NCBI GenBank assembly: GCA_030018585.1
Contig: JASEHZ010000004.1
Span: forward strand, 1 to 37,830
Origin: Patescibacteria group bacterium
Lineage (GTDB): Bacteria > Patescibacteriota > Minisyncoccia > UBA6257 > GWB1-50-10
Direction of reading: 5' to 3'
DNA: 37,830 nucleotides
Shown here piece after piece: positions 1,999 through 37,352 of the stretch. A program made the translations under genes and the position numbers. Under the pieces are notes generated by a model. That model was not told the DNA's origin, ran no database searches, and saw only the letters and a list, made by a program, of their open reading frames with translations. The number at the start of each line of letters is the position of its first letter. The stretch's first letter is position 1.

Positions 1999-2178
1999 AT
2001 CCTGTTAGAGATAATTAAATTATTAAACTTATGAATACTAGTCATTTATCTAAATCAATAAAATGGATGAATCCCGTTAGAAAATCTAACCAACAAGGTT
2101 TCTGCTTTTCTGCTCACTATAAGCTTTTAAAGCTCTGTCTTGGTCAAACAGACAAAGATTGTTCGATTTTCTAACGGG
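1999..2178 (+). promoter_or_regulatory. intergenic structured element (ATCCCGTTAG type) filling dprA stop to topA ATG
   Basis: Perfect 16-bp inverted repeat ATCCCGTTAGAAAATC (2071-2086) / GATTTTCTAACGGGAT (2165-2180) overlapping the topA ATG; additional diverged 5' arm ATCCTGTTAGAG directly after the dprA TAA; ATGAATACTAGTCATTTATC core shared with the rpsC copy. Confidence 0.8.
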
Positions 2179-4350
2179 ATGAATCTAGTTATTGTTGAAA
2201 GTCCGACAAAAACAAAAACAATCGGAAAATATCTTGATCCGTCATTTGTAGTCCACGCCAGCGTCGGCCATATTCGCGACCTACCCAAAAGCAACAAAAA
2301 AGCTATTGATATCCCGGGCGGATTTATCCCCCATTATGAAATTTCAAAAGGTAAAGAAAAAATTGTTGAAGAAATTAAAAAACTAGCGAAAAAAGCCGAA
2401 AACATATATCTCGCCACTGACCCCGACCGCGAAGGAGAATCGATTGCTTGGCACATAAAAGAAGCATGCGGTCTAAAAAATCCAAAACGCATTGCATTTT
2501 ACGAAATCACGGAAAATGCCGTAAAAGAAGCCTTAGAACATCCTCGACATATTGACTTGAATTTATTAAAAGCCCAAGAAGCGCGCCGCGTTTTGGACCG
2601 GCTTGTGGGTTATGATCTTTCGGGTTTAATCTGGAAAAAAGTCCGTTACGGCCTTTCAGCGGGCCGCGTCCAATCGCCGGCTCTCCGCATTTTAATGGAA
2701 CGCGAGCGGGAAATCCGCGCTTTTATCCCCCAAAAATTTTGGACCATCCAAGGCAGATTTGAAACAAAAGAAAAACAAATAATTATTTTTACTTGCGAAG
2801 AAGAGCCAAAAAAAATCGAAGAAGTTGAACGCATTGCAAAAATTGCCAGCACTCATCCATGGCAAATTATTCAAATCAAAGAAACCGAAGTTAAACGCTC
2901 CCCCAAACCGCCCTTTATTACCTCTACCCTACAACAAACCGCGAGCTCACGTTTGGGATATTCGCCGTCGCGCACCATGTCTATTGCCCAAAAACTTTAC
3001 GAACAAGGTTTTATCACTTACATGCGCACTGATAGCGTCACCTTAAGCAAAGATATTCTAGGGCAAATCTATCACGAAATCGAATCAATATTCGGAAAAG
3101 AATATTTAGAACCGCGAATCTATAAAACCAAAAGCAAAAGCGCTCAAGAGGCTCATGAAGCAATTAGGCCATCAAAAATTGCCGTGAAAAATGCCGGCCA
3201 TACTGACGATCAAAAAAAGCTCTACACATTAATTAGAGAAAGAACATTGGCCTCTCAAATGTCTGACGCTAAAATGCTCCGGACAAAAGTTTCAGCAAAT
3301 ATTATTGGAAACGAGTCTATCCCGAATTTTTCTGTTTCCGGAAGTATTATTTTATTTCCCGGCTGGCTTAAAGCTGATCCACGCGCAAACGGCGAAGAAA
3401 AAGAACTGCCGAAATTAAAAGAAAAAGAACTATTGAAATTAAACGAAATTACAAATGAAGAAAAACAAACCGAACCGCCAGCCCGTTACACTGAAGCCGG
3501 TCTGATTAAAGAGTTGGAAAAACGGGAAATCGGCCGCCCCTCGACATACGCCACAATTATTTCCACTCTTTTAAACCGCGGTTATGTTGAAAAAGAAGGA
3601 CAAGCATTAAAGCCAACTGATACCGGTGATGTGGTGAGCTCATTTCTCGAAAAAAACTTTACAAATTACATCAGCGATTCTTTTACCGCGGAAATGGAAC
3701 GAGACCTTGATGAAATTGCGGAAGGTACTCGCGATTACACAAAAACCCTAAAAGATTTTTATAAGCCGTTTTCTGAAGACATAAAGCATAAAGCTAAAGA
3801 CGCGGAAAAAATCACTACCCTTGGCGAAAACGAGAAATTTAAGTGCCCGCTTGATGAAAACCACGGCACTATGCTTATTAAGCTTGGCCGGACCGGTAAA
3901 TTTTTAAGTTGTAGAAAATTTCCTGATTGTATGGGGGCAAGAAAAATTGACGGCAGTATCATGGAACCGCCAAAAGAAACGGGAGAGTCTTGCCCTAAAT
4001 GCGAGAAAGGAAAACTCATTGAACGCGAAGGAAGATTCGGTAAATTTATTGCTTGTTCCAATTATCCAAAATGTAAATACGTGAAAAAAAGCGCCGAAGA
4101 AGAAGCGAAAAACAAAACCGGCGTTTCCTGCCCTGAATGCAAAAAAGGCGAACTTACCGGTCGACGAGGACGATTCGGCGTATTTTACAGCTGTTCCAAT
4201 TATCCGGATTGCAAATTTATCATAAAATCAAAACCTACTGGTAATAAATGTGAGCTTTGCGGATCATTAATGATGGAAGGCACAAAAACAATTCCGGAAA
4301 GATGTTCAAATAAAAACTGCAAAAATCACAATCCGCATAAAAATAAATAA
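2179..4350 (+). CDS. topA: DNA topoisomerase I with C-terminal zinc fingers
   Basis: MNLVIVESPTKTKTIGKYL start, ATDPDREGESIAWHI, QGFITYMRTDSVTLS, repeated C-terminal Cys4 modules; start taken at ATG 2179. Confidence 0.97.
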   Translation: MNLVIVESPTKTKTIGKYLDPSFVVHASVGHIRDLPKSNKKAIDIPGGFIPHYEISKGKEKIVEEIKKLAKKAENIYLATDPDREGESIAWHIKEACGLKNPKRIAFYEITENAVKEALEHPRHIDLNLLKAQEARRVLDRLVGYDLSGLIWKKVRYGLSAGRVQSPALRILMEREREIRAFIPQKFWTIQGRFETKEKQIIIFTCEEEPKKIEEVERIAKIASTHPWQIIQIKETEVKRSPKPPFITSTLQQTASSRLGYSPSRTMSIAQKLYEQGFITYMRTDSVTLSKDILGQIYHEIESIFGKEYLEPRIYKTKSKSAQEAHEAIRPSKIAVKNAGHTDDQKKLYTLIRERTLASQMSDAKMLRTKVSANIIGNESIPNFSVSGSIILFPGWLKADPRANGEEKELPKLKEKELLKLNEITNEEKQTEPPARYTEAGLIKELEKREIGRPSTYATIISTLLNRGYVEKEGQALKPTDTGDVVSSFLEKNFTNYISDSFTAEMERDLDEIAEGTRDYTKTLKDFYKPFSEDIKHKAKDAEKITTLGENEKFKCPLDENHGTMLIKLGRTGKFLSCRKFPDCMGARKIDGSIMEPPKETGESCPKCEKGKLIEREGRFGKFIACSNYPKCKYVKKSAEEEAKNKTGVSCPECKKGELTGRRGRFGVFYSCSNYPDCKFIIKSKPTGNKCELCGSLMMEGTKTIPERCSNKNCKNHNPHKNK

Positions 4351-4374: not shown

Positions 4375-4402
4375 AAAGCGCTTCAATTAATTGAAGCGCT
4401 TT
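4375..4402. terminator. palindromic terminator downstream of topA
   Basis: AAAGCGCTTCAATTAATTGAAGCGCTTT perfect palindrome. Confidence 0.7.
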
Positions 4403-6642: not shown

Positions 6643-7908
6643 TTAAAATATCCCCTCGTATTCACGGATTGTAAGCTGGGATTCGATTTGTTTCATTACT
6701 TCGAGCGCAACCGAAACAACAATCAAGAGCGCCGTACCGCCAATGGAGAGCGCTTCAATACCGGTAAACATTTGAGTCACGTTCGGCAAAATCGCGACAA
6801 TACCTAAAAATAAAGCGCCAAAAAAGGTTATTCTTCGAACAGTTCTGCCAATCACGTCAGCTGTAGCCGAACCGGGCCTAATGCCAGGGATAAAACCGCC
6901 GCTACGCTGCAGGTTCTTAGCAATCTCCTCTGGATCAAAAGTAATGGCCGTATAAAAATAAGTAAAAACAACGACTAAGATAAAATATAAAATGCTGTAA
7001 ATAAAAATATTATTGAAAAATCCAGAAACAAAATCATTGATACGAATTGAAAGATCAGAAGAAACAATGGCAACAGTTTGGGCAAAAAACTGAGGAAAAA
7101 GAAGCAATGAAATAGCAAAAATAATCGGGATAACGCCGGCCTGATTTACCCGAAGCGGTAAATAAGTTGAAACACCGCCGTACATTTTATTACCCCTCAC
7201 TTGTTTAGCATAAGAAACAGACAATTTCCGTTCACCTTCGGTAATAAAAACAACGCCAGCCACAACTAAAATACTTAGAATAATAAAAGCAATATAAGTC
7301 GGCAAAATTCCCGGGTTTGCCAAACTTTCTGCCACATTCGCAGGCAAACTACTTACAATACCAGCAAAAATAACCAAAGAAATGCCATTGCCGATTTTAT
7401 ATTCGGAAATCAATTCACCAATCCACATCAAAAGAATGCTGCCGGCAGTAATAACGATGACATTGCTGATAAGCGGCAAAAAATCAAGCTGGGGTAATAC
7501 TCCACGAGACGTTAAAAGATTTAAAAAACCATAACCGGAGAGAGCGGCAAGCGGCACGGTGAGATACCGAGAAATACGATTAAACTTAGCCCGACCTTCT
7601 GCTCCTTCTTCATAATAATATTTTTTAAGATTAGGGAAGATAATCGTAAGAAGCTGCATAATAATAGTGGCGGTGATATAAGGACCAACACCTAACATCA
7701 TAATTGAAAGATTAGATAAGCCGCCGCCGGAAAAAACATTTAAGAAACCAAAAAGTTGATTAGAAGAGAAAAACTCTTCAAGCTTTTGGGCGTCAATGCC
7801 CGGAATAGGAATAGTAGCAAGTAACCTAAAAACTAAAAGCCAAAAAAGAACCATTAAAATCTTTTTCCGTAAATCTGGTATTTTAAAAATTTGAAGAAAT
7901 TTGTTCAT
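6643..7908 (-). CDS. secY: preprotein translocase SecY
   Basis: Multi-TM protein with IPIPGID, GVGPYITATIIMQLL, GERKLSVSYAKQVRG; start taken at MNKFLQIFK (ATG 7908). Confidence 0.97.
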   Translation of the reverse strand: MNKFLQIFKIPDLRKKILMVLFWLLVFRLLATIPIPGIDAQKLEEFFSSNQLFGFLNVFSGGGLSNLSIMMLGVGPYITATIIMQLLTIIFPNLKKYYYEEGAEGRAKFNRISRYLTVPLAALSGYGFLNLLTSRGVLPQLDFLPLISNVIVITAGSILLMWIGELISEYKIGNGISLVIFAGIVSSLPANVAESLANPGILPTYIAFIILSILVVAGVVFITEGERKLSVSYAKQVRGNKMYGGVSTYLPLRVNQAGVIPIIFAISLLLFPQFFAQTVAIVSSDLSIRINDFVSGFFNNIFIYSILYFILVVVFTYFYTAITFDPEEIAKNLQRSGGFIPGIRPGSATADVIGRTVRRITFFGALFLGIVAILPNVTQMFTGIEALSIGGTALLIVVSVALEVMKQIESQLTIREYEGIF

Positions 7909-8028
7909 CCCGTTAGAAGCAGGTCGCCTGAGGCGACCGTAATACAACGGCCCTTTTTTTAATATCTATGTTTTTTGGTAAATGCTTGATCATTATAAAT
8001 TTAGTAATTTAGTTGCTTCTAACGGGAT
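7907..8028 (-). promoter_or_regulatory. intergenic structured element (ATCCCGTTAG type) filling rplO stop to secY ATG
   Basis: 15-bp terminal inverted repeat ATCCCGTTAGAAGCA/TGCTTCTAACGGGAT; internal GGTCGCC tca GGCGACC hairpin; core AAGCATTTACCAAAAAACATA. Confidence 0.85.
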
Positions 8029-30829: not shown

Positions 30830-30962
30830 ACCCCTCACCTCTCAAAGATTGTTTAATACACAAAACCAAAAAACATATTTATGAATCACAAACAATTAAA
30901 AACAGTAAATTTAAAAACATTTCTTTGGTCACGAAGTGACTTATCTTCGAAGAGTAAGAGAT
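30830..30962 (+). repeat. diverged copy of the rplX-type intergenic element
   Basis: ACCCCTCACCTCT...ACCAAAAAACATA...ATGAATCACAAACAATTAAAAACAGTAAATTT...GGTCACGAAGTGAC; near-identical core to the reverse complement of 11.5 kb. Confidence 0.75.
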
Positions 30963-37320: not shown

Positions 37321-37352
37321 AAAAACCGCTTCAATTAATTGAAGCGGTTTTT
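37321..37352. terminator. palindromic terminator
   Basis: AAAAACCGCTTCAATTAATTGAAGCGGTTTTT. Confidence 0.75.

Follow-up and report, generated by a model that had tools for sequence, protein, structure and literature searches.

The sequence separating rplO from secY in the window, i.e., the whole stretch of 37,830 nucleotides analysed here, probably belongs, as a non-autonomous, MITE-like copy, to a mobile DNA family that is bounded by terminal inverted repeats (TIRs), encodes a GIY-YIG nuclease in its long form, and inserts at start codons. An earlier note had presented it as a candidate leader RNA of secY; the observation itself was sound, but the reading was too narrow. We also favour, with rather more belief than doubt, the broader proposal that the family represents an undescribed prokaryotic class, GIY-YIG transposons. 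These would be minimal TIR-bounded units transposed by a nuclease of ~90 aa, of which the TCCCG and CCCAGTA types would recognise start codons, borrow the start of the host gene and give it a new ATG, with short copies mobilised in trans widespread in Patescibacteria.

The element at the secY start

On the minus strand, rplO...CAAACTATGA is followed by ATCCCGTTAGAAGCA ... TGCTTCTAACGGG and then by ATGAACAAATTT of secY, with the rplO stop TGA at 8031-8029 and the secY ATG at 7908-7906. The arms ATCCCGTTAGAAGCA (8028-8014) and TGCTTCTAACGGGAT (7921-7907), identified by sequence, fold, and covariation, form a perfect 15-bp inverted repeat between the two genes, which confirms the end stem described in the earlier note. 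It was claimed there that the element fills the stop-to-start gap. The repeat does span it, but the element proper, delimited by its sequence and by family copies, is the 120-bp TCCCGTTAGAAGCA...TGCTTCTAACGGGA at 8027-7908 (core TCCCGTTAG...CTAACGGGA, TCCCG...CGGGA), and the outer A (8028) and T (7907) are parts of a duplicated TGAA lying outside it. Both copies of this target site duplication (TSD) were found by sequence and a TSD scan: the left one (8031-8028) includes the rplO stop and, together with A8032, gives the captured ATGA; the right one (7907-7904), preceded by A7908, the last base of the element, gives the secY ATG. Deleting one repeat unit in silico regenerates CTATGAACAAA, in which the rplO stop and the secY start overlap as ATGA. 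From its true ATG, the host gene secY (7908-6643, minus strand; Pfam SecY, E 1e-98) encodes 421 aa. The automatic ORF caller starts it at TTG 7947 inside the element (434 aa), and such elements will mislead start-site annotation elsewhere.

The RNA fold of the element has an energy of -38.1 kcal/mol vs -18.5 +/- 3.4 for shuffled sequences (z -5.8), and both the minimum-energy and the centroid structures contain the long stem. The hairpin GGTCGCCTCAGGCGACC (GGTCGCC/GGCGACC, minus strand, 7938-7922), also pointed out earlier, is present, adjoins the 3' arm, and is supported by fold and covariation. A switch to an alternative fold through the internal GGCCGTT was rejected, as neither structure contains it.

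The window holds three intact copies and a truncated one. The second intact copy (13718-13843, minus strand) lies between rplV and rpsC and ends at the rpsC ATG, its left TSD being eroded; the third (2072-2179, plus strand) has a different interior, ends at the topA ATG, and is flanked by TGAA. The truncated element (ATCCTGTTAGAGATAATTAAATTATTAAACTTATGAATACT..., 1999-2070, plus strand), recognised by similarity to 122-bp copies, is located directly 3' of the dprA stop and was broken by the insertion of the topA copy. Two further repeats were seen in the window. A 53-nt pair at 11534-11586 and 30863-30915, 85% complementary and containing the element core ACCAAAAAACATA, possibly represents decayed copies or a TIR-less fragment family, and two copies, 93% alike, of a 28-bp palindrome (AAAGCGCTTCAATTAATTGAAGCGCTTT; 4375-4402 and 37323-37350) are probably terminators or another small repeat.

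A dispersed and mobile family

The sequence ATCCCGTTAG occurs nine times in the window with at most one mismatch (1.6 expected), and the 681,944-bp Patescibacteria genome carries 23 exact occurrences per strand, vs none of the reversed control pattern. Most occurrences pair up as elements of 110-128 bp with several interior types, and the genome contains about thirty copies. For the breadth of distribution, the pattern CCCGTTAGN{75,105}CTAACGGGATG was scanned against one genome per species, and at least 116 stretches matched. Among the matches listed, the majority came from Patescibacteria (Paceibacteria groups, Saccharibacteria, Kerfeldbacteria, and others) and one each from Omnitrophota, Planctomycetes, Desulfobacterales, Deltaproteobacteria, and Bacteroidia bins; some of the latter could be binning errors. 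A phage or plasmid origin was rejected, as viral contigs gave only two matches and the plasmids searched gave no close one.

TIRs, TSDs, and empty sites in relatives, by which a mobile TIR element is generally recognised, were all found. Copies have the layout NTGNN-TCCCGTTAG...CTAACGGGA-TGNN, the 4-5-bp TSD beginning at the second base of the start codon (A followed by TGNN). Among 136 distinct ATG-flanked copies, drawn by an ATG-containing pattern and followed by an ORF of at least 60 aa, the exact TSD was 4 bp long in 93 and 5 bp in 7; an intact TSD was missing in 31, by age or another mechanism. The captured upstream start codon in this sample was ATG in 100 cases, GTG in three, and TTG and CTG in one each; the A contributed by the element makes the downstream codon an ATG. 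A whole-genome scan for perfect inverted repeats returned 20 pairs with a 4-6-bp duplication vs none in shuffled sequences. In the congener G001, the secY, rpsC, and topA starts are all empty, i.e., none of the three intact window copies has a counterpart there. Three further genomes have an element at the secY start and four have one at the topA start, with different interiors where these were compared, and the same start is occupied by other subfamilies in other genera. In the fetched loci, an element was observed at the start of topA in 5 of 20 (L388, L396, L400, L402, and L407), of secY in 4 of 27, and of rpsC in 1 of 20, and the topA start is a possible insertion hot spot. Nested insertions (L012:1019-1198; window 1999-2180) and near-identical copies in front of different genes (L185/L193, 100%; a pair in L021, 99%) were also found.

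These data bear on the proposal that the element is a cis-regulatory leader RNA, riboswitch-like or of the ribosomal-protein type, that evolved to control secY and other genes. A stable, covarying hairpin that takes in the start codon and a location in a ribosomal operon would suit such a role. However, the TSDs, the nesting, the empty orthologous sites, the unrelated hosts, the several unrelated interiors, and the GIY-YIG-bearing versions described below largely refute it, so that a dedicated secY leader is now hardly credible. The comparison with Rfam suggested in the earlier note returned no family matching the element, which is also not conserved at orthologous genes in the manner of riboswitches or ribosomal leaders. 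The Rfam search revealed no group I/II intron core, and an integron attC site was rejected by eye, the orientation of the core being unsuitable.

Long forms encode a GIY-YIG nuclease

A search for TIR pairs spaced further apart yielded two long elements, one in L184 (2986-3260, from G026) and one in L210 (275 and 278 bp), which have the ends of the short copies and the TGAA duplication at a start codon. Each contains a single ORF, which opens with the captured ATG and closes with the TGA within the downstream ATGA. The encoded protein (MNPVRDDEYYYVYVLRS...YTGYTNDLRKRLREHN...SREQYLKSGMGKRFLKNRLKRFLSLTG, then the stop), whose two ends, MNPVR and LTG, are both encoded by the TIRs, belongs to the GIY-YIG superfamily (PF01541, E 1.2e-16, 61 bits against a cut-off of 22.6), and the catalytic motifs Y-x-Y, YTG, R, H, and E are near-invariant in an alignment of 28 sequences. 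Of the 244 genomes examined from the order, 156 gave relatives, and in 25 of the 29 best GIY-YIG loci the stop overlaps the ATG of the next gene (ATGA). Since the long forms with the TIRs of the short copies carry the GIY-YIG gene, the short copies are read as non-autonomous relatives. Most of their interiors are not recognisable as deleted GIY-YIG genes; a subterminal TTCCT is common to some short copies and the GIY-YIG form (15 vs 0.2 expected). Judging from these sequence relationships, the nuclease may mobilise the copies in trans, and the hairpin may be what it recognises.

In the genome under study, a GIY-YIG copy occupies the start of a livM-like gene; its TSD is TGGA, and its TIRs (CCCGTACGAAAC/GTTTCGTACGGG) have drifted yet remain complementary. 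In this genome, the sole GIY-YIG copy of the start-codon TCCCG type carries a TIR that has drifted (CCCGTACG), and the enzyme responsible for moving the CCCGTTAG copies is therefore not seen in it. Repeats listed by the whole-genome scan enclose other GIY-YIG genes with other ends at C24:1195-1499, C25:7092-7377, and C1:1636-1897. The first of these (L225, in G000) has the ends CCCAGTACTACAAC and a TATG duplication at a start; elements of a CCCAGTA...TACTGGG type were observed at start codons in L225, L351, and L360, and in L225 and L351 the TATG duplication includes the host ATG. In a sample of distant GIY-YIG genes, most are bounded by perfect repeats of 11-19 bp, and some are without clear inverted repeats.

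One may ask whether the GIY-YIG gene is a mere passenger of a real mobile TIR family that another transposase moves in trans. The abundance of CCCGTTAG copies in a genome without a GIY-YIG gene having exactly that TIR would fit this idea, but it is made unlikely by the fact that GIY-YIG is the sole ORF in the forms of ~280 bp and that a GIY-YIG gene of its own lies within each of five unrelated TIRs, CCCGTTAG, CCCGTACG, CCCAGTAC, ACCCCGTTAGATA, and ACCGAGCAC. A long autonomous element encoding a DDE transposase was also considered and was rejected, since TIR pairs of up to 7-8 kb at the loci fetched included none.

Insertion at start codons

The earlier note had asked whether matches end at start codons, and they do: of the 24 copies that could be placed in the genome under study, 22 have their end exactly at a long ORF's ATG. 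The hosts are functionally unrelated, with secY, rpsC, topA, nusG, rplI, and eno among them, and those confirmed by Pfam comprise YchF, NusG, phosphoglycerate mutase, beta-CASP, L9, LigA, enolase, a class I Trp/Tyr-type tRNA synthetase, RecR, and SecY. The sample of 136 copies was drawn by an ATG-containing pattern, and the count was therefore repeated without the ATG requirement. Among 107 elements from five genomes, 80 adjoined the ATG that opens an ORF of at least 40 aa and 6 that of a short ORF, and 21 were located elsewhere, many of the last belonging to a related type that ends in C...G and has duplications such as TTGA, TCAA, and TAAA.

The TSDs of start insertions prefer TNNA (84 of 100, vs 237 of 500 starts of the genome; p 5e-12). 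By crude gene calls, the genome contains ~10,650 noncoding TNNA sites vs 237 ATGNA starts (about 45:1), so that motif preference alone would place only ~2% of insertions at starts. Upstream contexts are mixed, including TATAAT-like boxes near the ATG, stop/start overlaps, and a few Shine-Dalgarno-like sites, and a promoter feature therefore does not explain the choice. These observations point to active targeting or very strong selection. The latter corresponds to a variant of the favoured explanation, to which we give some but limited weight, in which insertion at TNNA is untargeted and only the start-codon copies survive or are favoured. It is in keeping with the few non-start T-type copies having TNNA-like duplications without TG (TCAA, TTGA, and TAAA), which imply that the enzyme does not need TG, and with the related C-type elements (CCCCG...CGGGG), which lie mostly outside starts. 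However, neutral noncoding TNNA sites are ~45 times as numerous as ATGNA starts, and despite this they were found to harbour few intact copies and almost no relics. Survival bias acting on a large pool of decayed non-start copies was rejected, as few decayed copies were found.

A sister type with the ends CCCCGTTAG...CTAACGGGG was observed mostly away from start codons (L208:11660-11737, L211:3681-3757, L211:9669-9744, L216:14808-14907, and L180:9682-9781; also in L352, L356, L364, and L366). Its short copies have TSDs such as TTGA, TTTA, TCAA, and TAAA, and its longer versions, ACCCCGTTAGATA...TATCTAACGGGGT, contain their own GIY-YIG gene. At G047:C25:24210-24314, a tRNA-like sequence lies within a CCCGTTAGATT...AATCTAACGGG inverted repeat; this element perhaps captured a tRNA or was built around one.

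Reading frame and translation of the host gene

Within the secY-start element, an open frame was noticed (7913-7993, minus strand; MIKHLPKNIDIKKRAVVLRSPQATCF) whose TAA stands 4 nt ahead of the secY ATG (TAA CGGG ATG) and which is probably a ribosome relay. In 119 of 195 short copies, the host start is the exact end point of an ORF of 20 codons or more, as TAA-CGGG-ATG or ATGA. Shuffling the interiors gives 33 +/- 5 such cases (at most 47), and inverting the element gives 35. Purifying selection on the peptide was not found, pN/pS in the ORF frame being no lower than in the other frames; with no dN/dS signal, selection on the small peptide was rejected, and it is the frame rather than the product that seems important. 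Covariation of the stem, proposed earlier as a check, was found. In the closing stem and the hairpin, 98.3% of cells are paired vs 34-42% when the pairing is slid, and nine pairs are changed on both sides (0 of 500 shuffles); in the hairpin at 7922-7938, six of the seven pairs are altered on both sides among 16 copies. The closing stem could have a function for the nuclease, for translation, or for both.

In the favoured explanation, an element with TIRs beginning TCCCG inserts at a start codon with a stagger of 4-5 bp and a preference for TNNA, converting NTGNN into NTGNN-T...A-TGNN. In the long form, the captured upstream start drives the nuclease ORF, and the stop of the element's ORF overlaps the regenerated ATG or precedes it by 4 nt, so that the host gene would remain translated by stop/start coupling, aided by the closing hairpin. 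On the sequence evidence, ribosomes may thus traverse the element and start anew at the host ATG, and such coupling may keep the host gene expressed. An effect of the insertion on host-gene translation is likely, as a consequence rather than the origin of the element. A different way to hide the element from the host gene, either self-excision at the RNA level or ribosome bypassing between the two ATGA copies, might be suggested by the identical ATGNN on both flanks, which the closing hairpin brings together. We regard it as very improbable: neither an intron-like core nor an Rfam match is present, an ORF that ends at the start suggests coupling, and the right ATG alone opens an intact host ORF, so neither excision nor bypassing is needed.

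Relation to known systems and significance

The short copies resemble MITEs in being short, TIR-bounded, TSD-flanked, numerous, nested, and without a transposase of their own. They differ in inserting at start codons, in TIRs that vary by compensatory change, and in a reading frame that is kept open. Their ends are shared not with a DDE-transposase element, as is usual for MITEs, but with a GIY-YIG element, which makes a nuclease the presumptive autonomous partner. T4-like phages carry free-standing GIY-YIG and HNH homing endonucleases, segA-G and mobE, the seg genes being of the GIY-YIG kind, mobE overlaps its neighbour (UAAUGA), and hairpins lie near the start (PMC2988022). The small nuclease gene, the overlap with the neighbour, and the hairpins near the start are likenesses to our element (PMC2988022). 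However, these enzymes home into one allelic site by recombination, whereas the element has TIRs, TSDs, many unrelated sites, and short non-autonomous copies. Many unrelated genes are hit, unlike the one specific allelic site of a homing endonuclease.

The closest solved structure by sequence is a UPF0213/YhbQ-like GIY-YIG protein (BH0048, PDB 1zg2; E 7e-10). To our knowledge, UPF0213/YhbQ-like proteins are not known as mobile elements, and they are without the TIR-encoded MNPVR... and ...LTG ends of the long form. Penelope-like retroelements use a GIY-YIG endonuclease for insertion, but they are eukaryotic and need a reverse transcriptase, of which the present family has none. Insertions in CPR rRNA genes, some encoding GIY-YIG, others short and ORF-less, and not introns, have been described (PMC11270868). 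They share with the element the hosts, the GIY-YIG ORFs, and the short ORF-less forms, and differ in lying in rRNA rather than at start codons; TIRs or TSDs are not reported in the text searched (PMC11270868), and the insertions may be relatives of the element. The open-access PMC literature, to which our search was confined, gave no description of TIR-bounded GIY-YIG elements inserting at start codons.

If our explanation is right, a further kind of mobile DNA joins those already described. Its enzyme would be a nuclease for which bacterial DNA transposition is not known, and its insertion strategy, at the start codon, spares essential genes. The many small GIY-YIG genes and palindromic repeats in the tiny genomes of Patescibacteria would then be explained, start-site and leader annotations would be corrected, and a compact tool for placing DNA at the starts of genes could be obtained. 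By what means a DNA element locates start codons is a new question, and one that can be tested.
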